IMG/VR virus record: IMGVR_UViG_3300047356_001116
Location: 1-23,061 of that record
Reading direction: 5' to 3' (one strand)
Length of the DNA: 23,061 bases
Source of the DNA: a virus
Below, one piece after another: positions 396 to 18,118 of this stretch. The notes beneath the pieces are model-generated. The model made no database searches. It worked only from the letters and a program-made list of their open reading frames with translations, and had not been told where the DNA came from. Position 1 is the first letter of the stretch; the number at the start of each line of letters is the position of its first letter. The position numbers were made by a program, and so were the translations under genes.

Positions 396-405
396 ATATT
401 TATAT
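396..405 (+). promoter_or_regulatory. Candidate phage late promoter, copy 1 (ATATTTATAT)
   Basis: Exact ATATTTATAT in the 56-bp gap between the partial gene and the 194-aa gene, 24 nt before the ATG at 430. The same decamer, or a one-base variant, recurs before 7889, 12981, 15472 and 16780. It resembles the single-element T4-type late promoter (TATAAATA), but that string reads on the opposite strand here. The promoter role is inferred from recurrence and position. Confidence 0.6.
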
Positions 406-429
406 TAAGATAAAAACAATTTTTCAAAA

Positions 430-1014
430 ATGGATAATAAAAAACTTATTAAGGTAATAAAGGCATTAGTGGAGGTTGAGGTATCTAAGAAACATGAGAA
501 GTTTCTTAAGGACCAATTTCCAGCAATACTTGATGAAGCCGTTAAAGGTAAAATAAAAACTTTGAAAAAAACTACAACAAAAAAAGTAGTTAGTGAAGAA
601 GTAGACCCTTTTGAAATGGCAAATCAAGTATTACAAAACGAACGAGAAGAACAACCAAAAAGACAATTGAGTAAAAACGCTGCAATTAATGAGGTTCTTA
701 ATAATACACAACCATTCTCTAAAGAACAAAGAAGTGGAGGAACACAAGTTAAATCTGTGTTAGATTCATTTCAGAAACCACAAGTGAATGAAAGTATGGA
801 TAAAACAATTACATTTGATTCAACTAACGTTGCAATGGGAGGAGGTGTACCACCGAACTTGCAACATTCAATGGCAGCACAGATGGGATATGGAGATGTA
901 TCAGCAGCTGCTGGAGTGAAGCAAGGTGGATTGGGTGTACAGACTGGGTTAGCTGGTTTGGATAGAATATTAAACAGAGATAACTCTGCGTTAGTTAAAA
1001 AGTTTAAAAAGTAA
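430..1014 (+). CDS. Hypothetical protein upstream of gp25 (late structural cluster)
   Basis: This 194-aa protein has a charged helical N-terminus (about residues 1-60, Lys/Glu/Val-rich), a low-complexity Gln/Asn/Lys-rich middle (about 60-130), and a Gly/Ala-rich C-terminus ending in a basic KKFKK. No catalytic motif is visible. It has no Shine-Dalgarno sequence, only an A/T-rich leader, and lies 24 nt after a candidate late promoter. It is probably the first gene of an operon running through gp25 and gp6 to 7849. Small helical proteins before gp25 occur in T4-like marine phages, so a baseplate or assembly role is reasonable but unproven. A gp53-like wedge role is possible; I see no motif that shows it. 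Confidence 0.75.
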   Translation: MDNKKLIKVIKALVEVEVSKKHEKFLKDQFPAILDEAVKGKIKTLKKTTTKKVVSEEVDPFEMANQVLQNEREEQPKRQLSKNAAINEVLNNTQPFSKEQRSGGTQVKSVLDSFQKPQVNESMDKTITFDSTNVAMGGGVPPNLQHSMAAQMGYGDVSAAAGVKQGGLGVQTGLAGLDRILNRDNSALVKKFKK

Positions 1015-1018
1015 GGAG
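1013..1018 (+). promoter_or_regulatory. Shine-Dalgarno AAGGAG selecting the GTG start of gp25
   Basis: AAGGAG overlaps the stop codon of the preceding gene and lies 6 nt before GTG 1025. This supports the non-ATG start for the gp25-like gene and suggests translational coupling. Confidence 0.7.
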
Positions 1019-1024
1019 TAAGTA

Positions 1025-1453
1025 GTGGCATATGTTATAGGTAAAAAGATTGTAAAAGATACTGAATCAGAGTTTGATAGTCATGCTTATGGATTTCAGT
1101 TTCCTACAAACGGTGGTACTTTATTTAAACCAACCTATACCTCATATGAAGCTGCAAAATCTAATTTAAGAAATCTTCTTCTTACAGCAAAAGGAGAGCG
1201 AGTAATGCAACCAGAATTTGGTACAGGATTACACGAATTATTATTTGAACAAATGGGAGATGATTTTGAGGGTAGATTAGTAGATACAATAACTGAAAGT
1301 GTAAACTTTTGGTTACCTTATATAAACATAGATGAGATAAATGTTGAATTAACAGATGAAATGAAAGATAGAAATCAAGTTGGAATGAATATAAAATTTT
1401 CAATTGGTGATAATATCGAAACCGATAATGTAACATTTACTTTGCAGGGATAA
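1025..1453 (+). CDS. gp25: Baseplate wedge protein, gp25-like
   Basis: This 142-aa protein matches the small gp25/GPW family of contractile tails, which includes the type VI secretion protein TssE. Gp25 sits in the inner baseplate wedge with gp6 and gp53 and helps anchor the sheath. The family hallmark is visible at about residues 57-76: a GER(V)M-x-P-x-FG-x-GL-x-x-LLFE pattern, preceded by a helix (SYEAAKSNLRNLLLTAKGE). The C-terminal half is the expected mixed alpha/beta region (LPYINIDEINVEL). Length is normal for the family (T4 gp25 is 132 aa). It starts at GTG with AAGGAG 6 nt upstream. The gp6-like gene follows after 6 nt, the usual neighbour order in T4-like phages. Confidence 0.93.
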   Translation: MAYVIGKKIVKDTESEFDSHAYGFQFPTNGGTLFKPTYTSYEAAKSNLRNLLLTAKGERVMQPEFGTGLHELLFEQMGDDFEGRLVDTITESVNFWLPYINIDEINVELTDEMKDRNQVGMNIKFSIGDNIETDNVTFTLQG

Positions 1454-1459
1454 TAAATT

Positions 1460-3499
1460 ATGGCACTTAATACTGGTAATATAAAAAACAAGGGAAGAGA
1501 TATTAAATATCTAAATAAAGACTTTGGTCAATTTAGAGATAATTTAATAGAGTTTTCAAAAACATACTTCCCACAAACGTATTCTGATTTTAATGAATCA
1601 TCGCCAGGTATGATGTTCATAGAAATGGCATCTTACTTAGGAGATGTTCTTGGATATTATATTGATGATACTTTAAAAGAATCAATGATTCATTCTGCAG
1701 AAGATAGAAGTAATGTTGTTGCTCTTGCAAACTTCTTAGGATATAAACCAAAAACAACATCGGCAGGATTAACAACTATATCAGTTTACCAGCTTGTACC
1801 AAGTAAAAGAAAAGCTAGTGGTAATTTATATGATGGTGATAATAGATTTGATTTAGATGCAGGATATCTTATTAGAATTAAAGAAGGAATGAATATTACT
1901 TCTTCAACAACAGGTCTTACTTTTAGAACTACCGAACTTGTAGATTTTAATGACTTGAATGAGAGAGAAGTATCTGTGTACGAAAGAAACGAATTCGGTG
2001 AACCAACATTTTATTTAATAAGAAAATATGTAAATGCTATTTCAGCTGAATTAAATACATTAAATGTTTCATTTGATTCACCAGAGCAATTTTCTAAAGT
2101 TAATATTGCTGATACTAATATAATTGAAATTTATGATGTGAGGGATTCAAATGGAAACAAATGGTATGAAGTTCCTTATCTTGCACAAGAACTTGTTTAT
2201 ACTGATTACGCAAACACAGACCAGCGTGATAAAGATTTAGCACAATTTAAAGATTCAGTATCACAGATTTTACAGGTAACTAAAACATCAAGAAGATTTG
2301 TAAGACAAGTAAATGAAGATAATTCAACATCTCTTGTATTTGGGGGAGGTAATTCAGCATCTTCAGATGAAACTTTCTTACCAAACTTTAAAAATGTTGG
2401 ATTAGGATTGAATAATTCAATTGATAGATTGGGTGCATCATTTGACCCTGCTAACTTCTTAAAATCAAAATCATATGGACAGGCTCCTGCCAACACAACA
2501 CTCACTATACGATATTTTACAGGTGGTGGTGTTGAGGCAAATGTACCTGCAAACGATTTAACTAAAATAGATGCAATTGAATTCGATGAAGATTTATCTT
2601 TATTTGATGATGATGAATTAACATTATATAGATTCTGTAAAAATTCAGTTGCAGTTGATAATGAAATACCAGCTAGTGGTGGTAGGGGTGCAGAAACAAT
2701 CGATGAGATTAGAGAAAACGCACTTGCACACTTTGGTTCACAAAACAGAGCAGTAACACGAAAAGATTATCAAGTTAGAGCATTAGCTCTTCCACCAAAA
2801 TATGGAGGTGTAGCAAAAGCATATACTGCTCCTGATGGAGAATTGGATAACAACTCACCATCATCAATATTATCCTCACCTGATTCTTTAGATGAGTTCG
2901 CAGGGTTGGTTTTGGATTTACAAGAAAAAGAACTTACAGAAACTGAGTTAAAAACACAATTACAAACTTTTTTAACTAATAAAAAAGGAACTGTAAATGA
3001 AAAGAATAATCCATTTGCTATAAATCTATATGTTCTTGGATATAATTCAAATAAAAAATTAACATCTTTAAACAGAGCAGTTAAAGAAAATTTAAAAACA
3101 TACCTATCAGAATATAGAATGTTAACCGATGGTATAAATTTATTAGATGGTTTTGTAATAAATGTTGGTGTTGATTTTGAAATCAGAGTATTTAATTCTT
3201 ATAATAAACGAGAAGTAATGTTACAATGTATTACTGAAATAGAAAATTATTTTAATATTGATAATTGGACATTTAATAAACCAATTAATATTTCAGAATT
3301 GGAATTGATAATAGCATCAGTAGAAGGAGTACAATCTGTTCCTAAATGTATAATTGAAAATAAATGTGGTGGAACTTACTCTAAGCACAAGTATAATATT
3401 GAAACGGCAACTAAAGGTAAAATGGTTTTTCCATCATTAGACCCTTCAGTATTTGAATTAAAATATCCTGGTAAGGATATAAAAGGGAGGGTTATATAA
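1460..3499 (+). CDS. gp6: Baseplate wedge protein, gp6-like (baseplate J family)
   Basis: At 679 aa it is close to T4 gp6 (660 aa), the wedge protein that forms the inner ring of the baseplate and drives its change of shape at infection. The N-terminus has the typical opening: FGQFRDNLIEFSKTYFP, then ESSPGMMFIEMASYLGDVLGYY at about residues 49-70. A family signature near residue 436 reads DYQVRALALPPKYGGVAKAY, the gpJ-like segment. The order gp25-gp6 confirms the identification. The start ATG is 6 nt after the gp25 stop with no clear Shine-Dalgarno sequence, and the stop overlaps the next start by one base (TAATG), so translation is likely coupled. Confidence 0.93.
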   Translation: MALNTGNIKNKGRDIKYLNKDFGQFRDNLIEFSKTYFPQTYSDFNESSPGMMFIEMASYLGDVLGYYIDDTLKESMIHSAEDRSNVVALANFLGYKPKTTSAGLTTISVYQLVPSKRKASGNLYDGDNRFDLDAGYLIRIKEGMNITSSTTGLTFRTTELVDFNDLNEREVSVYERNEFGEPTFYLIRKYVNAISAELNTLNVSFDSPEQFSKVNIADTNIIEIYDVRDSNGNKWYEVPYLAQELVYTDYANTDQRDKDLAQFKDSVSQILQVTKTSRRFVRQVNEDNSTSLVFGGGNSASSDETFLPNFKNVGLGLNNSIDRLGASFDPANFLKSKSYGQAPANTTLTIRYFTGGGVEANVPANDLTKIDAIEFDEDLSLFDDDELTLYRFCKNSVAVDNEIPASGGRGAETIDEIRENALAHFGSQNRAVTRKDYQVRALALPPKYGGVAKAYTAPDGELDNNSPSSILSSPDSLDEFAGLVLDLQEKELTETELKTQLQTFLTNKKGTVNEKNNPFAINLYVLGYNSNKKLTSLNRAVKENLKTYLSEYRMLTDGINLLDGFVINVGVDFEIRVFNSYNKREVMLQCITEIENYFNIDNWTFNKPINISELELIIASVEGVQSVPKCIIENKCGGTYSKHKYNIETATKGKMVFPSLDPSVFELKYPGKDIKGRVI

Positions 3500-4563
3500 T
3501 GTATCATTTCGTAACCGCATCTAAAGATGCATCTATTTACTTACAACAACCATCTCAGAATACTGGATTAGATGAAATTTTAGAAGTTTCTAAAACTTAT
3601 TATGGAAGTTTAAAAGATATAGCACATTCTGTAATCAAGTTTGAAACAACTCCACTTTCACAATCTATTGCAAGTGGTGAAGTAACAATGAGTGCAGTAG
3701 ATATGATTCTTAAAGAATGTGAATCATCTGAAATTCCAATTGATTATACAATATATGCTTATGCAGTAACACAATCATGGGAAATGGGTATAGGTACTCG
3801 TTTCGATGATATTACAACTGATGGTGTATCTTGGAACTCTGTAAGAACAGGACAAGATTGGTTATCACAAGAAAACCATTCTGCAGATACAACTGGTTCA
3901 TTTAATGGTAAGGGAGGAACTTGGTTCACTGGTTCATTTTCATCACAATCTTTTTCATACGAATCATCTGATATAGAAATGGATGTTAAAACAACTATGG
4001 ATGAATGGATTGGTGGAACTCTACCAAATGAGGGATTTATTTTAAAACATGATACATCATTAGAAAATGATACTAATGATTATGGGCAATTAAAATTCTT
4101 CTCAAAAGAAACAAATACAATATACCAACCTAAACTGAGAATTGGTTGGGATGATTCTTCATTCTCTACTGGCTCTTTAACAGAACTTACCGCTGATGAT
4201 ATTCATGTAACATTTAAAAGATTAAAGACTAGATACAAGCGTGGAAGTAAACCTACAATCAGAGTTTTCGGAAGAGAAAAATATCCTCTTAAAACATATA
4301 CTAATGAATACTCATATACAGATTTATATTTTTTACCATCAACTACTTATTATCAGGTAAAAGATATATTAACTGATGAGATTATAATTGCATTTGATGA
4401 TGATTACACAAAAGTTTCGTGTGATTCAAATGGTAATTTCTTTAAATTAGATTTAACAAATTGGGAATATAATAGAGATTACTATATTCAGATTAAAACT
4501 AATAGAGATGGTGTTATAGAATACTTTGATGATAAGGATTTAACTTTTACGATAGAGAAATAA
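3499..4563 (+). CDS. Virion structural protein with DNRLRE-like N-terminal region
   Basis: This 354-aa protein is all-beta in appearance. Residues about 1-215 have the layout of DNRLRE/CBM96-type domains: an opening DASIYLQQPSQNTG, a line of paired beta-strands, an alternating YAYAVTQSWEMG segment, GVSW near residues 110-113, and a closing QPKLRIGWDD. Such domains are found on secreted and virion surface proteins and may bind carbohydrate. The remaining ~140 residues form a second beta-rich domain of unknown role. Its start overlaps the gp6 stop by one base and the next gene follows after one base. A baseplate-peripheral or fibre-attachment role is inferred from location. It occupies a position that gp7/gp8 could occupy in T4, but I see no specific resemblance to either. 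Confidence 0.75.
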   Translation: MYHFVTASKDASIYLQQPSQNTGLDEILEVSKTYYGSLKDIAHSVIKFETTPLSQSIASGEVTMSAVDMILKECESSEIPIDYTIYAYAVTQSWEMGIGTRFDDITTDGVSWNSVRTGQDWLSQENHSADTTGSFNGKGGTWFTGSFSSQSFSYESSDIEMDVKTTMDEWIGGTLPNEGFILKHDTSLENDTNDYGQLKFFSKETNTIYQPKLRIGWDDSSFSTGSLTELTADDIHVTFKRLKTRYKRGSKPTIRVFGREKYPLKTYTNEYSYTDLYFLPSTTYYQVKDILTDEIIIAFDDDYTKVSCDSNGNFFKLDLTNWEYNRDYYIQIKTNRDGVIEYFDDKDLTFTIEK

Positions 4564-4564
4564 A

Positions 4565-5845
4565 ATGGCATTAGATAATAAATTTAGAGTTTCAGAATTG
4601 GCACAGAGTGGCTCACGAGCAATCATCTCTGAGGACCCTATTTCTAAAACTCATACATTTATTGATGGTTCTACTACCATAGTTTCTCAATCTGCTTCTG
4701 AACCATATGAACATATTGAAGGTGAAAGAGATGGTGAGTTAACAAACTTTATAGAAAAGCCAAAGTACGAAGAAGAACAATTAAAGAAAGCAGTTGATAC
4801 TGTTATTGATGAGTTAATAGTACCACCATTACCACCATCACCGCCGGTAGTTCCTAAACCAATATACGATGATTTATTAGAACGATACAATCAAGCGATT
4901 GCAGATTTAGCAACTGCTAATAATACAATTAGAGATTTACAAGCACAGATTGCACAATTACAAGGTCAGATACAATCATTAAGACAACAACTTGATGCTG
5001 CACAGGTGGCCAGAGCAATTGCTGAAAACCAATTACAACAACAAGCTAGTTCATTTGGTGATTTAAGTGCTAAATTTTCACAAGCAATTATTAAAGCAAC
5101 AAGAGAAGCATCAGCAAGAGTATCTCTTCAAGCACAAGTTGCAGGTTTAGATGCTCAGAAAGAAACACTTAGAGAACAAATACTTGGATTGAGACAGATT
5201 GTTGCATCACTACAAGGACAGGTAGAAGCTCAATTAGCAATATTGGACCAACAGGTTGCATCATCACAGGCAGCTCAACAAGCAGCACAAGACATGATAT
5301 CAGGTAATCAAGCAACAAGTACTGCAGTAGCAAGTGGATTTGAAGATATGGGTGATGGTGATATATTCGTTAAATGGAGTACTGGAAAATATACAAGTGG
5401 TAATTTAGTTGTTGGAATGACAACTAAATGTAAAGATTATATAGGTGGACCTGGTAGATGGGACGGTGGTGAAAAACTTGAAATACAAAATTTAAAAGAT
5501 GATGATATCTCTGTAACTAAAGTTAGTATAAGAGTAACTTCACAAAGTGGTGGTGGATGGAAAGGAACAAAAAATTGGTTTAAACCAGCATCTCAACCAA
5601 ATATAGGTAGAGGTGATAAGGGTAGTGTTACTATGGTGGCTGAAAAATGGATTCATGGTCAAAATGGAGGTTCCAATCAAGTACAACCTTCTGATGGTTT
5701 ATATGTAAAAAGAGCATTCGGAATTAAAGACCGTGAGGCAAAAAATCATACTGGTAATTTTGAACTAACAATTGGAACTAGTGATGGTGCAACCATAAAG
5801 AAAACATTTGGATGGAGACTTGCAAAGAATAAAAAGAGTATATAG
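4565..5845 (+). CDS. Long coiled-coil virion protein, fibre- or whisker-like
   Basis: This 426-aa protein has three parts. Residues 1-85 are a polar N-terminal region, probably for attachment. Residues 87-99 are a short proline-rich linker. Residues about 101-245 are an uninterrupted Gln/Ala/Leu-rich heptad region (for example LQAQIAQLQGQIQSLRQQL), a clear coiled coil. The C-terminus (about 258-426) is beta-rich with many Gly, Trp and Lys residues and could be a distal knob or ligand-binding domain. This architecture is typical of trimeric phage fibres and whiskers, but I do not recognise a named family. It sits one base after the 354-aa gene and 3 bases before the 666-aa gene, with A-rich leaders instead of Shine-Dalgarno sequences. 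Confidence 0.75.
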   Translation: MALDNKFRVSELAQSGSRAIISEDPISKTHTFIDGSTTIVSQSASEPYEHIEGERDGELTNFIEKPKYEEEQLKKAVDTVIDELIVPPLPPSPPVVPKPIYDDLLERYNQAIADLATANNTIRDLQAQIAQLQGQIQSLRQQLDAAQVARAIAENQLQQQASSFGDLSAKFSQAIIKATREASARVSLQAQVAGLDAQKETLREQILGLRQIVASLQGQVEAQLAILDQQVASSQAAQQAAQDMISGNQATSTAVASGFEDMGDGDIFVKWSTGKYTSGNLVVGMTTKCKDYIGGPGRWDGGEKLEIQNLKDDDISVTKVSIRVTSQSGGGWKGTKNWFKPASQPNIGRGDKGSVTMVAEKWIHGQNGGSNQVQPSDGLYVKRAFGIKDREAKNHTGNFELTIGTSDGATIKKTFGWRLAKNKKSI

Positions 5846-5848
5846 AAA

Positions 5849-7849
5849 ATGGCAATAAAAGGATTTAAACAAGTAGTAGAAAAGAAGGGATACCGACTTG
5901 ATGACAAAGATAGAAAAATCTTTGAAAAGGAAATCAAGCGTGGGTATTTCGGATTTGATGTTGGTGATATTATCGAGTTTGTAATCTATGATGCATCTGA
6001 TAATCAATTACCACAAGAATTTGTTAATGGTCATAAAGTAAGGTATATAAACTATACTGATGAAAATATAAAAGAATATTTCGATAAAGTACCTGAAAAT
6101 AAGTTTAACAAAAAATCTAATAATGCTAAAGAGTATTTTATAGACACTGAAAAACTTATTAAAGAAGCTGGATATTCTAATGGAGTATTCAAAACACAGA
6201 TTACTTTATTAAATAGAAGATTGGGTTCTGAACCAAGATTGTTTGATAAAGCTTGGATTCATGAAATATCACCATCAAGAACAGAGGTAAGAGTACTACC
6301 AGTAGTAGAAGATGGAACAAATATTCCTAATTCAGATTTACAGGCAAGGTATGATACGTTTGTAAATTGTGGTACTTTTACAGCTGATGTTTTAATTTTT
6401 ATAGATGAGTTTGTAGACCAGTTTGATGTTGCTGAAGTAATCAAAAATATGTTGATGAAAAAGGGAACTATATCAGAAGGACAGGATTATATAAAATTAA
6501 TAGAAAAAGAATTTCAATTAGTAAACTTTGAAGTTTATCTTACACAAGCAAAAAAAATGTTTCAAGAGATTGTGGATAACTATCGTATGAATAGATACTA
6601 CAATCCATTTGAACCAAACTTTGGACAACCAACTGGTGAATCATTTGGAGTTGAATTTGATATTGCATCTGTTTTTGGTGAAATTTGTGAAATGGCATCA
6701 AATGCTGCAGAATATACATTACCAAAACAAGATATTAGATTAAATACGGCTAAAAGTGCATCTCAAAGTAGAACAATAGATGAATTAAAAGATATTTTAC
6801 TAACAGTTCGTAGTAGTAGTGAATATTCTTCTGATAGACCTACTGCTAAAGCAGCACAAATACGAGGATGTACAGACCCTTCTGCTAAAAACTATAACCG
6901 AGCGGCAACAATATCTTCACAATGTGTGTACGATATAAAAGTACCAAAGTATAGAAGTATAAAGGTTTGTAATGATAGGAGAGCTACAAATTTTGGTAGA
7001 GATGGTAATTGTACATATCCACCCCCACCTCCTCCTCCACCACCACCACCACCAATAGTAGTGAGGAATCCCCCACCTCCTCCACCAAGAGAGTCATCAG
7101 GTGGTTCTGGTTTATGTAAATATGGTAGTAGATATAGTATCTCAGCTGTTAGTAATCAAACTGTTGCAGCTGCAGGTAAAACAATTGGTCAACCACTTCA
7201 AGTATTGTTAGATGGTCAAAGACCTATGGCTGCTTGTAGAACCCAAGTAGGATTTACAATATCAGGATTTCCAAGTTGGATAACACCTAATATGAGAAGT
7301 AATAGCGATTCATCGGCTAGTAACTTTAGATATACAGTAGCAAAAAACACAGGTGCTTATAGAAGTGCAGTAATCAAAGTAACACCAAATCGTGCATCAG
7401 CAGGAGGTAGATATGCTGTATTTACTGTAAAGCAAGCGGCGGCGGTATCAAAACCACCACCACCTCCACCACCTCCACCACCAACAGTTGCTTTAACTAC
7501 TAGTCCAGCTACCTTAGAATTTAATTCCCAAGGAAGGCCTGCTTTTGGTATTGCAAGAATTAGTATAACTGTACCAGCTGGAGTAAGATGGGATATATCA
7601 CCAAATGGTGCAGCAGTTAATGGTATAGTATATAATCCAACTATGGGATATGGACCGGGAACCGTAAATTTTACTGATGTTAATCCAAGTTATAGTACAA
7701 ATGATAAAGCTGGTTATATCGATGTCCACTCTCAAGGAACATATAGGAGAACTTTTGTTACACAATATAAAGCTCCACGTTCTAGTGGTTATGGAAATAT
7801 GGGTGGTGACCAAGTTCAATCACGAGCTGGATTTGAATCACAAGCATAA
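5849..7849 (+). CDS. Structural protein with GCTD/NYN motifs, polyproline hinges and BACON-like domains
   Basis: This 666-aa modular protein starts with a region (about 1-310) resembling marine T4-like phage structural proteins, including a GVFKTQITLLNRRLGS stretch. Residues 340-362 (GCTDPSAKNYN...C-x-Y) and 374-390 (CNDRRATNF...CTY) are two Cys-bounded copies of a short motif common in Bacteroidota extracellular proteins. Polyproline follows (12 Pro from 391, six more after a short break), then a beta domain (about 420-530) containing FPSWITPN and ending AVFTVKQAA, as in BACON domains. A second polyproline (536-545) leads to a second BACON/Ig-like domain (about 547-645). The proline codons are mixed CCA/CCT/CCC. 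It is the last gene before the next candidate late promoter. Surface display on the baseplate or tail is inferred. Confidence 0.8.
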   Translation: MAIKGFKQVVEKKGYRLDDKDRKIFEKEIKRGYFGFDVGDIIEFVIYDASDNQLPQEFVNGHKVRYINYTDENIKEYFDKVPENKFNKKSNNAKEYFIDTEKLIKEAGYSNGVFKTQITLLNRRLGSEPRLFDKAWIHEISPSRTEVRVLPVVEDGTNIPNSDLQARYDTFVNCGTFTADVLIFIDEFVDQFDVAEVIKNMLMKKGTISEGQDYIKLIEKEFQLVNFEVYLTQAKKMFQEIVDNYRMNRYYNPFEPNFGQPTGESFGVEFDIASVFGEICEMASNAAEYTLPKQDIRLNTAKSASQSRTIDELKDILLTVRSSSEYSSDRPTAKAAQIRGCTDPSAKNYNRAATISSQCVYDIKVPKYRSIKVCNDRRATNFGRDGNCTYPPPPPPPPPPPPIVVRNPPPPPPRESSGGSGLCKYGSRYSISAVSNQTVAAAGKTIGQPLQVLLDGQRPMAACRTQVGFTISGFPSWITPNMRSNSDSSASNFRYTVAKNTGAYRSAVIKVTPNRASAGGRYAVFTVKQAAAVSKPPPPPPPPPPTVALTTSPATLEFNSQGRPAFGIARISITVPAGVRWDISPNGAAVNGIVYNPTMGYGPGTVNFTDVNPSYSTNDKAGYIDVHSQGTYRRTFVTQYKAPRSSGYGNMGGDQVQSRAGFESQA

Positions 7850-7851
7850 AG

Positions 7852-7861
7852 ATATTTATAT
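7852..7861 (+). promoter_or_regulatory. Candidate phage late promoter, copy 2 (ATATTTATAT)
   Basis: Exact ATATTTATAT in the 39-bp gap between the 666-aa and 1677-aa genes, 27 nt before ATG 7889. It begins 3 nt after the previous stop codon and is followed by AGGAG at 7873-7877 (11-nt spacing to the ATG). Confidence 0.65.
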
Positions 7862-7888
7862 AGAAGGATAAAAGGAGAAAAATAGAAA

Positions 7889-10800
7889 ATGGCAAGACCA
7901 AGTAGAAATGGTACTTATAATGGAGAAAAAGATGGGTTCTACACATGGAATGGACGCATGTGGGTGGATTCTCGTGTCACTTCTTTTAACAATGGTAATG
8001 GTGGTTTACCATTTGTTGGTGATTTAGGATTAGGTGACATTGGTGATTTTAGTGATTTTAAAATTGATATACCAGAAATCAAATTTGACCCAATTCATTT
8101 CGAAAATATTACATTAGTATGGGGTTCTAATCCTACTGGTATAGACTTTACTGTAAGTCATAATGGTAGAAATAAAACCAAATGGAGTAGTAGAGATTTT
8201 CTAAACCGAAAAACCTTTTCGGCTAAAGCAGGTGGATATGGTGAATCAGCTGATAAATATACTGTTGAAACAGTTGTGAGCAACCCTTCTTCAGTTAATT
8301 CAATTGGTTTCTTCCCCATGTTTCAGGTTCTTATTCGTAAAAATGGTGCTCTTGTAAAAACAATGACACTGGCAGATAAATACTTTACAGGTAAGTTTGA
8401 ATTTAAAAAAGAAGAAATTATAGTTCAAAACCCTCCGACTGGAATAGGTGTAAATGTTGATGTACAGGTACCAAATGGAGTTTCTGCTAAGGTTCAAATC
8501 AATAGTAAATCAGAAACCTCGAATGGTTCTGAAGATTTATCAATAGTAGACCGAGATTCAAGTGTAGGAAACTTAAATGTTACATTACAAGGAACTGATT
8601 CTACTTGTAACTATATGTATGAGTTGGCTAATTCAGCAGGAGCCTTTATAGCTTCTGGAAATACAAAAAACTTTAGCAAGAGTGGATTAACAGTTGGGAG
8701 TTATAAATTAAAAATTGTAGTAAGTAAAACTGCTGTTCCAGACCCACCTAAACCATCACCAAGTTATAGATATAGAACAGAAACATATTATGTAAACTCC
8801 ACATCAACGGCTGGTAGTGTTGCTGCATCTGCAGCTAAGGTAACAACAACTGCAACCGCAGATAGAGATTTTATAAACTTTGGAGCAGGTACTGAAGATG
8901 ATGATACGATAGATATTTCTTATAGCTCAACAAACGCAGATTATGTTAATTTTATTTTAGGTTCTTCTAAAACAGAATTAGGAAAAAGTGGTACAATTAC
9001 AATTTCAGGTACAGATTTATTTCAAGGAGAAGGAAAATATACAGCATATTTTCAAGCAGTATCTAGAAGAGATGGAACTGGTAATACCGCATCTATTCAA
9101 TTTAACGCTATTAGAAAAAATCTTTTACCTGGTCCTGATATTTTAACAATAGATTATCCTAACCAAATTGTTGGTAAAGATTATCAAGGATATAATGTTG
9201 ATTTTGAAATATCTTGGACTTCAATAAATACAAATTATGTTGATATTTGGATAAATGAGGTTAAAGATACATTGAAATTGGCTTCAAAAAGACCTGCCGA
9301 TGGAGTACAATCTTTTAATATTAAAGATGTATTAAGAAAAGCAGGAAATAATTTAGATGAAGATGCTGATGCAGTTGTATTTGATTTAAAATTAATTCCT
9401 TACAATGAAGAGGGTGATTCTAAAGTAGCAGGTAAAACCGAAACTATACAAATTACCTTTGATAAAGGAAACATAAAATTAAGAAGAGATGTAATTTTAA
9501 AAGATATTAAAGAATCTATTTGTGATTTATTCAATACTGATGTATTGGGTAGTGATTCTTCTAAATACTTAACTCACTTAATGCACTTTGGTGAAGCTAA
9601 TAACAAAGTAGTTGCATCTTGGGATACTGATTACGAAACATTCTCAGAATATGAATTCAAGGAAGATACTGGTGAAAGATTAAAAGTACATGAAGAAAAA
9701 ACTCTTGTATTTAAATTATATGAACCTCTTCCAAGAGAAGTACAACCAAATGAACAGATTTGGGTTTCTAAGATACAATCAATTCCTTATGTTGAACAGG
9801 TAACAATAGTAAATGAAGAAGTTGAAGATTGTATTGAATTAATACCAAACTTTGGTACTGATGTGTGTGGTGAAAATATTGGATATCAACTATATGATGA
9901 TTTGATAGCAAGTGGTTCTACATCATCCACAAAACTTTTAACAGAATATGTTAGTGGTAGTGGGTTTGATTTAAAAAAGCTTGATATTAACTTTGTGAGT
10001 TCATCAAGAGAAGTTAGTGGTTCGATATATGTTGATGGGGATTATACCTATGCTTGGAATAATTTTGTAAAGTATTCTTCAGCTGAAGAACGAGTTGATA
10101 ACTTTATGTATAAAATAAAGTTAATAGAATTCTATGAAGATAAAATAACAAAATTACAATCTGGTTCGTTCCACACAGGCTCAGTAACATTAAAAAACGA
10201 AATTAATAGAAACTCCGAATCGATTCAAAAAGTAGAAGATGAACTTGATGCATTTGAATCATTCTTATATACAAGTTCATCGATAGATGGATTAACATAT
10301 CCTGGTGCTGGTGGTAATTCTATATCTTCATCTGATTCATCAGATGCTACATCTTGGTATAATAGTATAATATCGAATGCAAAGAATTATGATTATTACA
10401 ACAAAGATTATCTTGTAAACAACTTACCACTTCATGTTCAAGATTCTGAAGATTCTGAACAGTTTAAAATGTTCTTTAATATGATGGGTCATCATTTCGA
10501 TGTTCTTTACTCATATACAAAATCTATTGCACAAAAGAAAAACTTAGAACATAAGTATGATATTGGTATTAAAGATTCTTTACTTTCAGAAATGTTAAAA
10601 TCTTTAAGTTGGGATGCTAAAATACCAGCTAAAGCACAATCTCTATGGGAATATGCATTTGGTGAAACATCAACTGGTACATCAGTATCATCTATGACTG
10701 GTAAACAAATCCAAAACGAAGTATGGAGAAGATTACTTAATAACTTACCTTACTTGATGAAACACAAAGGTTCAAGTAGAGCAGTAAAAGCAGCACTTAC

Positions 10801-12922
10801 TTGTTATGGTGTTCCTTCATCAATGTTAACCATTATGGAATTTGGTGGACCAAGGAGTTCAGATGGTGGTACAACTAAATTCTCATTCGAAGATAGAACC
10901 GCAGCAATAAACATAAGTGGTTCGCAATCAATATTAGTTCCTTGGAAAGAATACTCAGAAACATCTGATTATCCAAATGCAGTTGAAATTAGAGTAAACT
11001 CTGATACAAGACAAGACCAAACCTTTGTATCAAGTTCATTATGGAGTGTGGGTGTTGAACATACAAGTGGAAGAAACGCAGTATTAAAACTTACAGTTTC
11101 AGATACTACATCTGCATACTCAGTTACATCTTCAGCTTTCCCATTCTATAATGATGAATATACACAAGTTATTGTAACTAAGAATGGTAATTCATTTAAT
11201 GTATATGGTAAGGAAGCATTTCAAGGTAGAATACGAAGTGAAGTTTCTGCTTCATTAGAAGTTGAAAATCATATTTGGCAAACTGATACTACATTAAGAA
11301 TTGGTGGAGATACATTGACTGGTTCTGTTGATGAATTTAGATATTGGACAACTCCATTATCTGAATCAAGAATGGATAATCACACTTTGATGCCAGATGC
11401 AATTGATGGTAATCATCACTCATCATCTACTGAAGATTTAATATACAGATTAGATTTTGAATATCCAAAAGATAGAAACGCTGATACTGCAATTAAAAAC
11501 GTATCCATAAATGAAGGATATGGTGAACCATTTGCTACGGCAAGTGGATTTGATTCTATTACAGATTATCCATATCATTATACAACATATGAAAGAACTG
11601 TAACTGCAAATGTTCCTTCAAGTGGATTTAACGTTTCACAAAAATTTAGATTTGAAGAACAACAAGGATTAAATGAAGATATAGAATATGGATTAACTCT
11701 TTCTTATAGAGACCGTTCAACTAAAAAATCTTTCGATACTTCTCCTGTTGATTCAAATAGGTTAGGATTATTCTTTTCACCTGTTAAAGAGGTTAATATG
11801 GATATCCTAAAATCATTAGGACAGTTTGAATTGGATGATTATATTGGTAATCCATCAGATGAATATGAGTATGAATATAGAGATTTAAGAATTTTAAGAA
11901 ATTATTATTTTGAAAGATATAGTTTAAACTTATACGAATATATTCAATTAGTAAGATATATTGACCAATCATTATTTGAGGTATTAGAATCACTTGTACC
12001 TGCAAGAGCAATTGTATCAAGTGGATTATTGATTGAACCACATATACTTGAAAGAAATAAAGTAAAAAGAACTAAACCTCAAGCAGTAGATTTTGGTTCT
12101 AAATTTCAAGATGGGGAGATTGATGCTAGAGAAGCTTATCAATTAGCAATGATTCCAATAACACAATGGCCAGCTGATTTAAAATTACAAGAACAAGTAA
12201 GATTAGCAGGTTTACAGAATCAATATGCTACTTTACTTAAACTAAGTAAACCAACATTCCAAGGAAACTTTAATGATTTGATTGGAAGAATAGATGATTT
12301 ATCACCAACATTTGTATCAACTGTTGATTTAATTGATGGAAGAATTACAGATTCAAAAGTTGTTGATAAGTTAATAAAACAATTTGAAGCATTTGGTGGC
12401 CAAAATCAAGTAGGTATTGATACTGATAATTTAACAAATGGATTAGCGGGTATAACCGCACAAAACGGATTTGCTTATATTACTAAATTAGATGGAAGAG
12501 GAAATCTTATAAAAGAACACAAACAGGTATTTATAGTAGAAGAATCTTATACTATTACAATTCCAAAACTAATTAATAGAAATGACCCATCATTGGGTTA
12601 CGAAGATGAGATTGTAACTAAAACAAGAAAAGTAGTAGTATTTGCTGATATTGGTGATAACGGACCAACAGTTGGTGGTAACACATTATCAGTTACAAGA
12701 GCAAATTCAAATGGTGGTAAGTTGATAGGACAGTTGGGTTCTTCTAACTTAGGTCAAAAATATAGTGGAAGAGGATTTAGATTCCCTTCTTTACAAAATG
12801 AAAACACAACACTAGATGGACGTTCAGCAGTAGAAACTTTCTGTACAAACCCTAATATTCTTAAGGTTTCTGATACATCAAGGGGAGCTGGAGAACCAAT
12901 TTTAGAGGTAGATGTTAAATAA
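7889..12922 (+). CDS. Giant tail/baseplate protein with Ig-like and LamG-like domains
   Basis: At 1677 aa this is the largest protein here. The N-terminus has a YTWNGRMWV motif, followed by several beta-sandwich segments with Ig/PKD-like spacing (about residues 60-535). A mixed region (about 540-950) leads to a signature of tail protein I-like phage proteins at about 953-989: LLNNLPYLMKHKGSSRAVK, then CYGVPSSMLTI and EFGGP. Immediately after it comes a LamG/concanavalin-like sandwich (about 995-1165, ending in GGDTL..GSVDEFRYW), a common glycan-binding fold. The rest is mainly helical, then a short beta C-terminus. It has its own candidate late promoter and AGGAG, so it probably forms a separate transcription unit. 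It may take the place of gp7 or of a tail-fibre connector; neither is proven. Confidence 0.8.
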   Translation: MARPSRNGTYNGEKDGFYTWNGRMWVDSRVTSFNNGNGGLPFVGDLGLGDIGDFSDFKIDIPEIKFDPIHFENITLVWGSNPTGIDFTVSHNGRNKTKWSSRDFLNRKTFSAKAGGYGESADKYTVETVVSNPSSVNSIGFFPMFQVLIRKNGALVKTMTLADKYFTGKFEFKKEEIIVQNPPTGIGVNVDVQVPNGVSAKVQINSKSETSNGSEDLSIVDRDSSVGNLNVTLQGTDSTCNYMYELANSAGAFIASGNTKNFSKSGLTVGSYKLKIVVSKTAVPDPPKPSPSYRYRTETYYVNSTSTAGSVAASAAKVTTTATADRDFINFGAGTEDDDTIDISYSSTNADYVNFILGSSKTELGKSGTITISGTDLFQGEGKYTAYFQAVSRRDGTGNTASIQFNAIRKNLLPGPDILTIDYPNQIVGKDYQGYNVDFEISWTSINTNYVDIWINEVKDTLKLASKRPADGVQSFNIKDVLRKAGNNLDEDADAVVFDLKLIPYNEEGDSKVAGKTETIQITFDKGNIKLRRDVILKDIKESICDLFNTDVLGSDSSKYLTHLMHFGEANNKVVASWDTDYETFSEYEFKEDTGERLKVHEEKTLVFKLYEPLPREVQPNEQIWVSKIQSIPYVEQVTIVNEEVEDCIELIPNFGTDVCGENIGYQLYDDLIASGSTSSTKLLTEYVSGSGFDLKKLDINFVSSSREVSGSIYVDGDYTYAWNNFVKYSSAEERVDNFMYKIKLIEFYEDKITKLQSGSFHTGSVTLKNEINRNSESIQKVEDELDAFESFLYTSSSIDGLTYPGAGGNSISSSDSSDATSWYNSIISNAKNYDYYNKDYLVNNLPLHVQDSEDSEQFKMFFNMMGHHFDVLYSYTKSIAQKKNLEHKYDIGIKDSLLSEMLKSLSWDAKIPAKAQSLWEYAFGETSTGTSVSSMTGKQIQNEVWRRLLNNLPYLMKHKGSSRAVKAALTCYGVPSSMLTIMEFGGPRSSDGGTTKFSFEDRTAAINISGSQSILVPWKEYSETSDYPNAVEIRVNSDTRQDQTFVSSSLWSVGVEHTSGRNAVLKLTVSDTTSAYSVTSSAFPFYNDEYTQVIVTKNGNSFNVYGKEAFQGRIRSEVSASLEVENHIWQTDTTLRIGGDTLTGSVDEFRYWTTPLSESRMDNHTLMPDAIDGNHHSSSTEDLIYRLDFEYPKDRNADTAIKNVSINEGYGEPFATASGFDSITDYPYHYTTYERTVTANVPSSGFNVSQKFRFEEQQGLNEDIEYGLTLSYRDRSTKKSFDTSPVDSNRLGLFFSPVKEVNMDILKSLGQFELDDYIGNPSDEYEYEYRDLRILRNYYFERYSLNLYEYIQLVRYIDQSLFEVLESLVPARAIVSSGLLIEPHILERNKVKRTKPQAVDFGSKFQDGEIDAREAYQLAMIPITQWPADLKLQEQVRLAGLQNQYATLLKLSKPTFQGNFNDLIGRIDDLSPTFVSTVDLIDGRITDSKVVDKLIKQFEAFGGQNQVGIDTDNLTNGLAGITAQNGFAYITKLDGRGNLIKEHKQVFIVEESYTITIPKLINRNDPSLGYEDEIVTKTRKVVVFADIGDNGPTVGGNTLSVTRANSNGGKLIGQLGSSNLGQKYSGRGFRFPSLQNENTTLDGRSAVETFCTNPNILKVSDTSRGAGEPILEVDVK

Positions 12923-12945
12923 TACGTTAATTTTATAAAATAGTT

Positions 12946-12955
12946 ATATTTATAT
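12946..12955 (+). promoter_or_regulatory. Candidate phage late promoter, copy 3 (ATATTTATAT)
   Basis: Exact ATATTTATAT, 25 nt before ATG 12981. A perfect 12-bp palindrome (ATTTTATAAAAT, 12930-12941) lies just upstream, after the stop codon of the 1677-aa gene. A GAGG (12970-12973) lies between the motif and the start codon. Confidence 0.65.
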
Positions 12956-12980
12956 ATTGAATAACACAGAGGAATAAATT

Positions 12981-13610
12981 ATGGCATATTTAGATAATTC
13001 AGAAATCACAGTTGATGCTATCCTTACAAGAAAGGGTAGAGAACTTATGGCAAATGGCCAAGGAATCAACATAACAAAATTTGCATTGGGAGATGATGAG
13101 ATAGATTACTCATTATATGAACCAGCACATCCAAAGGGTAGTGCTTATTATGATGCAGCAATTAAAGCAATCCCAATCACAGAGGCTTCACCAGATGAGA
13201 CTCAAGTATTGAAATACAAATTGGTAACTTTACCAAAAGGTACTAAGAAGATTCCACAAGTGGAATTTGGTATTCCATCTATTTCAGTAACTCAAACTTC
13301 AGGTCAAGTTTCTCTAACACCAACAACTTCACCAGCAGGAAACACTCAGAGTGGATATACTATGATACTTTCTAACAAGAACGCAGGTTCTGTTGTAGGT
13401 ACTGGAATCGCAGCTGGTAGTGGTACAGTTCCTTTAACTCTTGGGGAGGAAATAACAACAACTGCAGCCATAGAAGTTGGACAAGCGTTTACATTTATTC
13501 CTAACCCAAGTATTACACAAACAATTAAGACAACGATTACTGTATATGGTAATGAAACGGGTGGTTCACAAACTATTCCTGTAACTATTACTTATGTACA
13601 ACCAAGTTAA
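12981..13610 (+). CDS. Conserved T4-like virion structural protein with Ig-like C-terminus
   Basis: The N-terminal ~95 residues of this 209-aa protein (MAYLDNSEITVDAILTRKGRE..., then ITKFALGDDEIDYSLYEPAHP) match a small structural protein that I recall from marine T4-like phages. Its exact position in the virion is not known to me. The C-terminal ~110 residues are Thr/Ser/Gly-rich with repeated beta-strands and end in VTITYVQPS, as an Ig-like domain would. It follows a candidate late promoter and GAGG, and the 410-aa structural gene follows after 18 nt, so the two form a short operon ending at the terminator near 14900. Confidence 0.8.
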   Translation: MAYLDNSEITVDAILTRKGRELMANGQGINITKFALGDDEIDYSLYEPAHPKGSAYYDAAIKAIPITEASPDETQVLKYKLVTLPKGTKKIPQVEFGIPSISVTQTSGQVSLTPTTSPAGNTQSGYTMILSNKNAGSVVGTGIAAGSGTVPLTLGEEITTTAAIEVGQAFTFIPNPSITQTIKTTITVYGNETGGSQTIPVTITYVQPS

Positions 13611-13628
13611 TAAAAAGGAAAAAATAAA

Positions 13629-14861
13629 ATGGCAAATATATCAGGACAAGCAGGAGTAAATTTATCAGCTGATTTAGCATCATATCTATCACAGAATAAT
13701 GGTAACCTAACCTCTGAACAATTAACCGGAATCATCAACAATTATTTGACTGGTGGTGATAAAGTTGCTGCACAAGGTGGTAACTTATCAACAGGAGTAT
13801 ATAAAAGATTTGGAGAGTTTGATACCGTACAAGGAAAAATAGATACAGTTACTTCTGGTCTTTGGACTGGAGATACTGGTTCGATGACAACCTTTTTTAC
13901 TTCATCTACTCAAACAAACGCAACAAAAAATTATTATCTAAATGTGTACAATGCAGACCCTGCTACTGATGAAACTGCAACTGTACAATATGCAATCGCA
14001 TTTGGTAACAAATATGGAAGTGGTTCTGTATCACTTGCAAATTCAGATGATGCAACTTTAGCAGCTAAAGCAACATATGCACAATATCGTTCTATTCTTC
14101 TTGAAGAAGAAGATAACTTCTTCTCATTCACATCAGCATCAGGTGGAACACATGATTCAGAAGATATCTTTATAGTTAATGTTGCAAGAGCAAGATATAA
14201 AGAAACAATGGACCCTGGTAACATAGAGTTTAAACTCGCTGGACCAAATGGAACCCAAACATTTATTGATGATAGTGGTAAGAAATTTTCAGATGCAGTT
14301 GGAAAAGCTGGTAGAGTGTTTAATATCGTAAGTGGTTCACTTAATTTAGGAACTGAAAATGACCCAACAGTTGCAGAGAACTATTCAAGTGGTACTGCAA
14401 ATGGACAAGGATTTGGATTATTTTATCCAGACCAAGGATTGATGGTACTTAACCCAGCTGCTCTTAGAGCAACAGTTGGTACATCAACCGATAGTGGTTC
14501 TGTTGGTGGAACATGGTTGTACAAAGGATTTGATTATGAAGGACAAAATTCTTACTTACTACATAATATGTTAGAAAGTGGTTCTGATTTCCAAGCAAGA
14601 AGAGTAGAAAACATTTCTACATCACATTACTTTGTAAGAGCACAGAACAGAGAATTTAACTTCTCTAACAACCCAACATTCATAACAGGTTCAGATGGAA
14701 CTTTCAAAGAATCAGATTTCGAAACAAATCCAAGAACTTATATTACAGCAATTGGATTGATGAATGATGCAAATGAAATTCTAGCAGTAGCTAAAACTTC
14801 ACAACCTATTGAAAAATCATTCGATAAAGAAGTACTTATAAAAGTTAAACTTGATTTCTAA
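13629..14861 (+). CDS. Virion structural protein, paralogue A (410 aa)
   Basis: This 410-aa protein is paralogous to the 424-aa protein at 15472 over its C-terminal half. Shared landmarks in order are an I-x-V-x-x-x-x-x-x-Y-x-E...P-x-x-I segment (about residue 178), a FY-x-D-x-GL(M/I)V segment, an EFN(F/Y)S-x-NP block, and a C-terminal (S/T)xIGL-x-(N/D)D-x-N-(E/N)xxAVAK...PI-x-K module ending in a hydrophobic LD(F/L). I recognise this C-terminal module as common in marine T4-like phage structural genes, but not a defined function. The N-terminal ~150 residues are unrelated to the paralogue. It is in an operon with the 209-aa gene, with AAAAAGGA upstream and a strong terminator 20 nt after its stop. 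Confidence 0.8.
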   Translation: MANISGQAGVNLSADLASYLSQNNGNLTSEQLTGIINNYLTGGDKVAAQGGNLSTGVYKRFGEFDTVQGKIDTVTSGLWTGDTGSMTTFFTSSTQTNATKNYYLNVYNADPATDETATVQYAIAFGNKYGSGSVSLANSDDATLAAKATYAQYRSILLEEEDNFFSFTSASGGTHDSEDIFIVNVARARYKETMDPGNIEFKLAGPNGTQTFIDDSGKKFSDAVGKAGRVFNIVSGSLNLGTENDPTVAENYSSGTANGQGFGLFYPDQGLMVLNPAALRATVGTSTDSGSVGGTWLYKGFDYEGQNSYLLHNMLESGSDFQARRVENISTSHYFVRAQNREFNFSNNPTFITGSDGTFKESDFETNPRTYITAIGLMNDANEILAVAKTSQPIEKSFDKEVLIKVKLDF

Positions 14862-14879
14862 AAGAACTTAACCTATAAT

Positions 14880-14909
14880 AAACCCTCACCACTTAGGTGG
14901 GGGTTTTTT
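14880..14909 (+). terminator. Rho-independent terminator after the structural operon
   Basis: CCCTCACC (14883-14890), a 5-nt loop ACTTA, then GGTGGGGG (14896-14903) form an 8-bp stem with one G-U pair. AAA before the stem can pair with the first T residues, and a run of six T (14904-14909) follows. It is the only clear intrinsic terminator seen in the window and closes the 12981-14861 operon. Confidence 0.92.
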
Positions 14910-14913
14910 GTTT
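14902..14913 (+). repeat. 12-bp direct repeat, left copy (flanks the oxygenase gene)
   Basis: GGTTTTTTGTTT, comprising the end of the terminator stem and its T-tract. An identical copy lies at 15432-15443, just after the oxygenase stop codon. The repeat is T-rich, so chance is possible. Confidence 0.55.
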
Positions 14914-14925
14914 ATAATTAATATA

Positions 14926-15426
14926 ATGGATTCACACGATACTTTACTTCTTTCTGATACTGAAATAGAACGTATCAAATCACAATATAATAATAAATTA
15001 AAATTGGTAGAAAGTGATATCAGACACCATTGGCATTATCATGAAACCAATCCAACTACATGGATATATAAATTAGTAGATAATTTAATTAAAGAAAATA
15101 TAGGTAGTGAATATTCCATTTACACTCGTGTAAGTATTTTAAAGTACACAAAGGGTGATTATTTTTTAGAACATTCTGATGGAAGTTATAATACATCTTT
15201 AGACCCAAATCTATCTGAACATTTTTACGGTGGAATTGAAATGAGTAATTTTAATGATTTTACGGGTGGTGAGTTCTTCAAAAATGGTGTAGTTGTACCT
15301 TTTAAAAAAGGTAAAATAAATACCCATCAATTCGATGAACCACATGGTGTAAACGAAATAACATCAGGAGTAAGATGGAGTTTACAATTTCCAATAAAAT
15401 GGCGTTATGAAACAAATTTAATATAA
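14926..15426 (+). CDS. 2-oxoglutarate/Fe(II)-dependent oxygenase (prolyl-4-hydroxylase-like)
   Basis: This 166-aa protein carries the double-stranded beta-helix oxygenase motifs: H83-x-D85 (EHSDGS) for iron, a GGEFF strand near 114-118, a distal histidine H140 (PHGVNEI), and R150 (SGVRWSL), which binds the 2-oxoglutarate carboxylate. This family couples 2-oxoglutarate decarboxylation to hydroxylation of a protein or small molecule. The substrate cannot be read from sequence. A TTG at 14908 is in frame but lies in the terminator T-tract, so ATG 14926 is the better start. No candidate late motif precedes it. A TATAAT at 14913-14918 is too close to the start for a normal leader. It is sandwiched between two paralogous structural genes and flanked by a 12-bp repeat, like an inserted accessory gene. 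Confidence 0.87.
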   Translation: MDSHDTLLLSDTEIERIKSQYNNKLKLVESDIRHHWHYHETNPTTWIYKLVDNLIKENIGSEYSIYTRVSILKYTKGDYFLEHSDGSYNTSLDPNLSEHFYGGIEMSNFNDFTGGEFFKNGVVVPFKKGKINTHQFDEPHGVNEITSGVRWSLQFPIKWRYETNLI

Positions 15427-15431
15427 TTAGA

Positions 15432-15443
15432 GGTTTTTTGTTT
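15432..15443 (+). repeat. 12-bp direct repeat, right copy (flanks the oxygenase gene)
   Basis: GGTTTTTTGTTT, identical to 14902-14913, but with no hairpin in front of it. It begins 6 nt after the oxygenase stop codon and ends 4 nt before a candidate late promoter. Confidence 0.55.
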
Positions 15444-15447
15444 CCAT

Positions 15448-15457
15448 ATATTTATAT
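15448..15457 (+). promoter_or_regulatory. Candidate phage late promoter, copy 4 (ATATTTATAT)
   Basis: Exact ATATTTATAT, 14 nt before ATG 15472, the shortest spacing of the five copies. GAGG follows at once (15459-15462), so the predicted leader is very short. Confidence 0.65.
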
Positions 15458-15471
15458 AGAGGAATTATAGT

Positions 15472-16746
15472 ATGTTAAAAAATATAGCCAAATCAAACGT
15501 TCAACAGAGAAGCTTTCCTGTATATAAGAAATTTTATGCATCCGAAGCTGATTATCCTGTAATGAAGATATATGATAAAACATCTGCTCTTCATAGCGGA
15601 AGTGGTGCCTTTGATGCATCTTCTTTTGAAAGAACTGTTAGTGGTTCTATTATAGATTCATATCATAAGCATCCAATGTACAAATCAATAAGACAAAAGT
15701 ATTTTATTGAAAATGATTTGGTAAAAATGTTTGGACCTATTTCTAATCTTTATGATTTTTCAAATGAGAGAAGATTAGAAGAAACAATTTATGTAATTGA
15801 TATAGACCAAATAAGATATGGTGAGGGAATAAAACCTTCTTCTATTAGTTTAACATCACCACAAGTTGCATCTGGTTCCGAAGTTACTGATGATGGTAAA
15901 GGAGTTTTAAGAGCAAAAACTACCGAATACCAATGGACTAGAATGGATATGAATCAGTTTCAAAATGATTTTTCAAGGGGAGTTGATATTGTATTTGTAG
16001 ATAATGATACTCAACCAATTACCATTAGAGCACAACAACCATATGGTATTGATTTTAATAATCCATTGGTAAAACTAACTTGGGAAGGTGATACAGATGA
16101 TAGAACTATTCAAAGAATGGATGCATATACTGATACATTCCAAACAGGTAGTCAAGGACAGATTACAATAGCAGAAGGATTAAACTTTTTAGGTTCTGGT
16201 TTAGAGAATGTACAAGTAGGTAATGTATTTTATGCAGATGGGTTAATTGTATTTACTACACTTGCTGAACAAGAACAAGATGTTACTGATTATGATTTAG
16301 AGTTTCGTTCTACAAAAACAATACATGAATTAGAAGTACTTTGTCAAGCAGGAGATTGTGAATTTAACTACTCACAAAATCCATCAGCAATAACCACAAC
16401 TTTAAGTGGTTCATATAATTTTACAGAAAGTGAAATACGAGAAGGTAGTAGACTGGTTAGAAATACTAGAACAAGACCAATACGGGAAATAACAACAATA
16501 GATAGGTTAAATGAATTTCATGGTTCTGTAACAAGTTCAGTAACAAATGAATATGCAACTGGTTCTTGGGATGATTATTATAACTATTCATTAACAGACC
16601 CAACTGGTTCATATTTAACAACATTCGTATCAACAATAGGGTTGTACGATGATAATAATAACATGGTAGCAGTAGCAAAGTTACCCAAACCAATAAAGAA
16701 ATATCCAGACATGGCGGTGAATTTTATCGTTCGTATGGATTTATAA
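15472..16746 (+). CDS. Virion structural protein, paralogue B (424 aa)
   Basis: This 424-aa protein is homologous by eye to the 410-aa protein at 13629. Shared landmarks include TIYVIDIDQIRYGEG..P.SI near residue 105, VFYADGLIVF, a CEFNYSQNPS block, and the C-terminal STIGLYDDNNNMVAVAK...PIKK module. The N-terminal ~100 residues differ and are rich in Tyr, Lys and His. No enzymatic motif is visible. Paralogous virion proteins with different N-termini suggest related parts of a ring or fibre bundle, but this is inference. It has its own candidate late promoter and GAGG ribosome-binding site, separate from the oxygenase upstream. Confidence 0.8.
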   Translation: MLKNIAKSNVQQRSFPVYKKFYASEADYPVMKIYDKTSALHSGSGAFDASSFERTVSGSIIDSYHKHPMYKSIRQKYFIENDLVKMFGPISNLYDFSNERRLEETIYVIDIDQIRYGEGIKPSSISLTSPQVASGSEVTDDGKGVLRAKTTEYQWTRMDMNQFQNDFSRGVDIVFVDNDTQPITIRAQQPYGIDFNNPLVKLTWEGDTDDRTIQRMDAYTDTFQTGSQGQITIAEGLNFLGSGLENVQVGNVFYADGLIVFTTLAEQEQDVTDYDLEFRSTKTIHELEVLCQAGDCEFNYSQNPSAITTTLSGSYNFTESEIREGSRLVRNTRTRPIREITTIDRLNEFHGSVTSSVTNEYATGSWDDYYNYSLTDPTGSYLTTFVSTIGLYDDNNNMVAVAKLPKPIKKYPDMAVNFIVRMDL

Positions 16747-16747
16747 C

Positions 16748-16757
16748 ATATTTATAC
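16748..16757 (+). promoter_or_regulatory. Candidate phage late promoter, copy 5 (ATATTTATAC)
   Basis: ATATTTATAC differs from the other four copies only in the last base. It begins 2 nt after the stop of the 424-aa gene and lies 22 nt before ATG 16780, with AGGAG (16767-16771) between. Confidence 0.55.
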
Positions 16758-16779
16758 TTATATAAAAGGAGAAACAACT

Positions 16780-16968: not shown

Positions 16969-16978
16969 ACTATATAAT

Positions 16979-18030: not shown

Positions 18031-18065
18031 AATAAAAAATTGCAAATAAATAAAAGTTACAAATA

Positions 18066-18101: not shown

Positions 18102-18118
18102 AGTTTAAAGTAGTAACC

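Follow-up and report, generated by a model that had tools for sequence, protein, structure and literature searches.

The window considered here, that is the whole stretch of DNA analysed, is 23,061 bp long and is the entire IMG/VR virus record IMGVR_UViG_3300047356_001116. Its G+C content is 32% and its main genes all lie on the same strand. The T4-like baseplate wedge protein gp6 that it encodes has full-length matches of 36-41% identity in complete phages (uncultured LR756508, Microcystis phage Mel-JY01 and Flavobacterium immuto phages) and matches at least 80 IMG/VR contigs at 59-100% identity. Its main features, including the putative late units argued for below, are these.

430-7849, + strand: putative late unit 1, with gene 430, gp25, gp6 and genes 3499, 4565 and 5849, the inner genes being without the motif described below
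1025-1453, + strand: gp25, T4-like baseplate wedge, inside unit 1
1460-3499, + strand: gp6, T4-like baseplate wedge, inside unit 1
7889-12922, + strand: putative late unit 2, a single 1677-aa protein
12981-14861, + strand: putative late unit 3, with genes 12981-13610 and 13629-14861 and, at its end, a terminator-like hairpin
14880-14906, + strand: that terminator-like hairpin with its T tail (11 pairs, 6 of them G-C), at the end of unit 3
15472-16746, + strand: putative late unit 4, a 424-aa protein
16780-16968, + strand: first gene (62 aa) of putative late unit 5
18067-18098, + strand: host-type (sigma-ABfr) promoter TTTGG...TATCTTTG before the primase, also found in primase orthologues; a contrasting, early class
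18119-19060, + strand: DnaG-type primase, first gene of the early/replication unit
19749-22907, + strand: SbcD-SbcC-like protein

Unit 5 may continue through genes 16979 and 17514, where a sulfotransferase-like gene (16979-17551) overlaps one for a SegE-like GIY-YIG endonuclease (17514-18008). Between the hairpin and the next putative late promoter is a weakly 2OG-Fe(II) oxygenase-like gene (14926-15426) that has no motif of its own, has an orthologue start in one relative only and is probably a recent insertion. At 19749-22907 a single frame of 1052 aa contains both an SbcD-like phosphoesterase part and an SbcC-like ATPase part, whereas the T4 genes 47 and 46 are separate. Promoters of the Bacteroidota polymerase differ from those of E. 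coli, and an E. coli sigma-70 style scan of 12900-18200 gave chance-level matches only.

Five of the gaps carry a shared word in coding orientation.

396-405, + strand: putative late promoter element ATATTTATAT, 24 nt to the ATG at 430; the exact 9-mer ATATTTATA stands before 61 of 62 orthologues
7852-7861, + strand: putative late promoter element ATATTTATAT, 27 nt to the ATG at 7889; exact in 2 of 3 orthologues, with one mismatch in the third
12946-12955, + strand: putative late promoter element ATATTTATAT, 25 nt to the ATG at 12981; exact in 30 of 37 orthologues, with one mismatch in the other 7
15448-15457, + strand: putative late promoter element ATATTTATAT, 14 nt to the ATG at 15472; 15 of 15 orthologues exact
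16748-16757, + strand: putative late promoter element ATATTTATAC, its 9-mer ATATTTATA exact, 22 nt to the ATG at 16780; 12 of 12 orthologues exact

An earlier note, made from the letters of this DNA, had placed four decamers and the ATATTTATAC copy at these sites, intergenic, on the coding strand and 14-27 nt before ATGs, all of which is borne out. Its claim that genes hold no further exact copy also stands, the exact 9-mer ATATTTATA occurring five times on the + strand, always between genes, and not at all on the - strand. The one-mismatch copy that it gave as the nearest within a gene (4320-4329) is present, but there are others, at 12986-12995 and 17016-17025 on the + strand and at 1320 and 7114 on the - strand. 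A count of the decamer over the whole window, with 0-1 mismatch and on both strands, as the note proposed, gives 12 against a shuffle mean of 12.9 and is not above chance. The signal is in strand and position, not abundance: the 449 nt of intergenic DNA in the window have five exact ATATTTATA copies, when 3000 dinucleotide shuffles of the gaps yield a mean of 0.11 and a maximum of 2.

The pattern extends to the family, taken as ~95 related IMG/VR loci with 260 intergenic stretches (repeat loci of the same contig were dropped where noticed, and a simple ORF caller served for the IMG/VR contig gene starts and the k-mer tests). There ATATTTATA is the top-scoring intergenic 9-mer, present in 174 of the 260 stretches, with the proviso that the relatives share ancestry and such counts are not independent events. 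Its 176 copies in the gaps compare with 4.3 expected in shuffled gaps, 4 antisense intergenic copies, and 9 sense copies in 1.12 Mb of coding sequence; most end 13-30 nt 5′ of a start codon. Sense to antisense ratios in five long genomes are 37:4, 25:2, 18:1, 17:0 and 16:1, and an unbiased search of 8-mers ranks ATATTTAT or TATTTATA first in four of the relatives (G001-G004) and in the Flavobacterium phage immuto. As a positive control the same search on T4 returns first TATAAATA, the known T4 late promoter; ATATTTATA is without strand bias in T4 (6 and 7). Enrichment of ATATTTATA was looked for in the 484-kb phage LR756508.1 and none was found. Equal density within genes or on the non-coding strand, named in advance as evidence against a late promoter, is seen neither in the window nor in the relatives nor in the long genomes, and none of the tests of that kind made at the level of sequence went against the reading. 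Mel-JY01 (PP395634.1), whose recorded host is Microcystis, groups with the Flavobacterium phages and contains CGTATATT, a promoter word of Bacteroidota type; it may really infect a Bacteroidota companion.

The motif is conserved before orthologous genes, as the fractions given with the elements illustrate. For gene 12981 the exact motif is retained in immuto as well, at a protein identity of 43%. With gene 430 the spacing drifts (17-28 nt before the orthologues) while the motif stays, and among 53 distinct upstream sequences the motif columns are invariant and most flanking columns vary. Before the operon-internal genes there is no exact copy in any orthologue (gp25, 0 of 77; gp6, 0 of 80; 3499, 0 of 79; 4565, 0 of 44; 5849, 0 of 62), nor before any of 13 primase orthologues, seven of which have a one-mismatch match that overlaps the host-type -7 element there.

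In anatomy the element is spare. In an alignment of 225 unique late sites nothing upstream stands out as an element, no 5′ column exceeding 0.42 bits, and a -35 element is lacking, as it is from T4-type late promoters. The early class, CGTAnnTTTG, has a strong TTTGG ~20 nt upstream (2.45 bits at G) in 26 unique aligned sites, many of which are orthologous and hence not independent. These early sites agree with the published Flavobacterium promoter consensus, TTTG/TANNTTTG (PMC6847099). The Bacteroidota sigma-ABfr promoter, -33 TTTG / -7 TAnnTTTG (PMC6847099), is the type to which the early promoters of these phages belong; the late motif has TATATTT in common with its -7 element but is without the -33 TTTG and without the last G, and late sites do not qualify as promoters of that type. 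In 16 of 247 late sites the element ends just 1-6 nt before the ATG, which from the sequence would give leaderless or near-leaderless mRNAs; a class with a spacing of just 3-6 nt is seen in G001, G002 and immuto (e.g. ATATTTATAggtATG).

The T4 late promoter is a single -10-like AT octamer, TATAAATA, used by the host RNA polymerase with the gp55/gp33/gp45 system (PMC2988020, PMC7892883). Common to the two are an AT octamer before structural genes in coding orientation, the missing -35, a phage sigma (in the family a candidate) recognisable in region 2 only and, presumably, use of the host RNA polymerase. The family octamer is, however, TATTTATA and not TATAAATA, two of eight positions being different, so that the element lacks a feature by which T4 late promoters are defined and would work like one without being classed as one. 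Late consensi predicted in silico near structural genes of KVP40, 44RR, S-PM2 and Aeh1, phages with a gp55 homologue in their core set, are highly similar to that of T4 or differ at -13/-12 (Aeh1), and none is described as TATTTATA (PMC2988020). The earlier note had wondered whether the element was a T4 late promoter in flipped orientation or a diverged one. The first is not supported, as the element is directional, on the sense strand at a -10-like distance and with no antisense excess; the second fits better, with TATTTATA as a diverged TATAAATA in the normal reading direction.

What lies behind the two classes of site points the same way. The note had made the motif's presence before other structural genes a test, and in the family it does stand before those for terminase, portal, sheath, tube, hub, tape measure and head completion. 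The complete annotated genome of immuto has 24 TATTTATA sites, including those of terminase, portal gp20, tail fibre, tail spike, sheath, tube, hub and tape measure genes and also some before small genes that lead into the lysis cassette and the baseplate operon. Its second class, TTG-N-TATATTTAG (with a -33 TTG), has 17 sites, mostly before small hypothetical genes. Structural regions, drawn by us from the annotation as 77.9-101 kb and above 117 kb, hold 16 of the 24 late sites and 0 of the 17 second-class sites (Fisher p 9e-6); the other eight late-type sites precede non-structural genes. In G001-G004 the late motif is often found at portal, tube, hub, sheath and head-completion orthologues, and host-type promoters at those of primase, DNA polymerase and (G003) DnaB, with the sliding-clamp gene of G001 ~31 nt downstream of another. 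No exact copy was found close upstream of MCP and some portal and tube genes, and such major late genes may depend on read-through from upstream promoters or on variant motifs.

Several other explanations deserve weighing. That AT-rich intergenic DNA in a phage of 32% G+C produced the copies by chance would suit the raw one-mismatch count in the window, but the excess in the gaps of the window and of the relatives, the scarcity of antisense copies and the conservation before orthologues contradict it, leaving it a negligible probability. An element acting in RNA, whether a site at which the mRNA is processed or a leader signal for translation initiation, would account for most copies being 13-30 nt before start codons. 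It sits poorly with a spacing to the ATG that ranges from about 3 to >50 nt, and with operon-internal genes, which need translation too yet are without the motif. Pertinent also is the reverse complement, TATAAATAT, which in coding sequences of the ~95 relatives is seen 7 times against 63 expected under synonymous shuffling, an ~8-fold depletion. Among 504 AT-only 9-mers it ranks fourth in depletion, and runs of A, T or TA make up most of the other leading words. Such strong avoidance of antisense copies is expected of a DNA element that starts transcription. We consider the RNA alternative very unlikely. The depletion is consistent with selection against antisense late promoters, though it would fit avoidance of sense TATAAATA too.

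A more serious contender is a middle/late promoter read by host sigma-ABfr, with a MotA/AsiA-like phage co-activator in place of the -33 contact and no phage sigma involved. Its attractions are that TATATTTA resembles the -7 element TAnnTTTG minus the last G, and that these phages have early sites reading TATATTTG (TATATTTAG in immuto). At the late sites, however, neither the near-invariant G nor the -33 element is present, and the family conserves a sigma-region-2 protein closest to gp55; on these grounds we regard it as improbable, if less so than an RNA element.

A gp55-like sigma gene, which the earlier note had suggested looking for, is present in the family. The candidate, immuto gp118 (YP_010114565.1), is conserved, unannotated and encoded ~6 kb 5′ of gp6. 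Its match to PHROG 234, the late-sigma family, is weak (E 0.008, one member; E 0.5 in a plain scan), and profile-profile comparison by hhalign with T4 and cyanophage gp55 gives a probability of 85% and E 6e-6 over residues 7-105. The AlphaFold2 model is of moderate quality (pLDDT 66.8, pTM 0.39), yet the PDB matches listed for it are nearly all sigma factors, and the named ones among the BFVD matches listed are mostly so. First by VIA-align is T4 gp55 in the open complex (7d7c_F; Z 10.9, 111 residues, rmsd 6.0), where a Z of ~10.9 calls for caution with helical folds and the consistency of the match list is the stronger argument. The Pfam Sigma70_r2 and phrog_12791 profiles gave no match, Pfam scans of the candidate's family give weak unrelated matches only, and a profile search against PDB sequences gave none, so that it is placed by structure and profile-profile comparison. 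Judged by these, the protein is predicted to have a sigma-region-2 fold and to be a remote homologue of gp55, from which it differs in being very diverged, ~60-70 residues longer and endowed with a folded C-terminal domain.

Orthologues of the candidate are present in G001, G002, G004, G005, G008, G011, G012, immuto, Mel-JY01 and LR756508, and were not found in G003, G006, G007, G009 and G010, IMG/VR records that are possibly fragments. The window itself starts downstream of the expected sigma position. Two of the carriers, G012 and G008, also have a protein with 97% and 91% identity, respectively, to the 424-aa protein of the window, whose phage therefore very probably has the sigma too. LR756508.1 has its homologue at 100324-101010; there the late promoter may have diverged, or the link of sigma to motif may be looser than proposed. 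A host promoter directly 5′ of the sigma gene was considered and is inconsistent across 29 loci, the gene trailing the preceding one by a few nt. That neighbour, which overlaps or adjoins the sigma start in L081, L071, L181 and others (e.g. L181:4930-5202), is a conserved, translationally coupled gene of 87-120 aa with an N-terminal hydrophobic stretch and an SDDEVG/KDDEVG motif; by eye its product is not gp33-like. Directly 3′ of the sigma gene many relatives have one for a ~570-aa protein (start YILGISCGYHDSAAAL; e.g. L181:5987 onward), carbamoyltransferase-like by eye.

Of the other T4 components whose homologues the earlier note suggested seeking, a gp45-like clamp is found in two of the genomes examined, G001 (E 3e-14) and Mel-JY01, and gp33 (phrog_254) in 0 of 9 records, gp33 being fast to diverge and several of the records fragments. 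No gp45-like clamp was detected in the complete immuto genome, and activation by a clamp cannot therefore be assumed. The C-terminal domain of the sigma is modelled as four helices (core pLDDT about 90), and neither region 4 nor gp33, both considered as identities for it, is among the PDB matches listed, the best of which (Z 6.6) are to unrelated helical folds. The C-terminal tails, e.g. NPYIDNDYL, are acidic-hydrophobic, with a resemblance only to a clamp-binding peptide. A review of T4 late transcription remarks that a fused gp55-gp33 sigma is not found in nature and asks why (PMC2988020). The immuto-type family is a candidate for one. It is conceivable, though doubtful, that it is a natural single-chain late sigma, in which a gp55-like region 2 is joined to a C-terminal domain that does the beta-flap job of gp33, with a tail that possibly holds the clamp and a separate gp33 unneeded. 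If so, it would bear on the puzzle that gp55 and gp33 invariably occur as two proteins.

The explanation we consider well favoured is that ATATTTATA, with its core TATTTATA, serves a family of T4-like myoviruses of Bacteroidota as their late promoter and is read by a phage gp55-like sigma, early genes having host-type promoters. The element would be a single -10/-7-like one acting in the sense direction without -33/-35, with the start a few nt downstream, and would launch each structural-gene unit, in the window at 430, 7889, 12981, 15472 and 16780. Primase, polymerase, helicase and clamp genes would be served by TTTG-N17-23-TAnnTTTG promoters and the host sigma-ABfr holoenzyme, until a phage sigma related to T4 gp55, encoded just upstream of the baseplate genes, would redirect the host RNA polymerase to TATTTATA. 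We infer promoter role, late timing and recognition by the candidate sigma. A literature search for TATTTATA with phage and promoter returned unrelated papers only, and the part of the literature searched offered nothing on late promoters in T4-like phages of Bacteroidota.

On this sequence-level account, abundant T4-like phages of Bacteroidota (at least ~600 stretches matched in the scans of the family) would switch from a host-type early to a late programme, with the unannotated immuto gp118 likely the gene that makes the switch. With the promoter word, late genes can be recognised in phage genomes from metagenomes, and the action of a gp55-like sigma on a Bacteroidota polymerase becomes testable.
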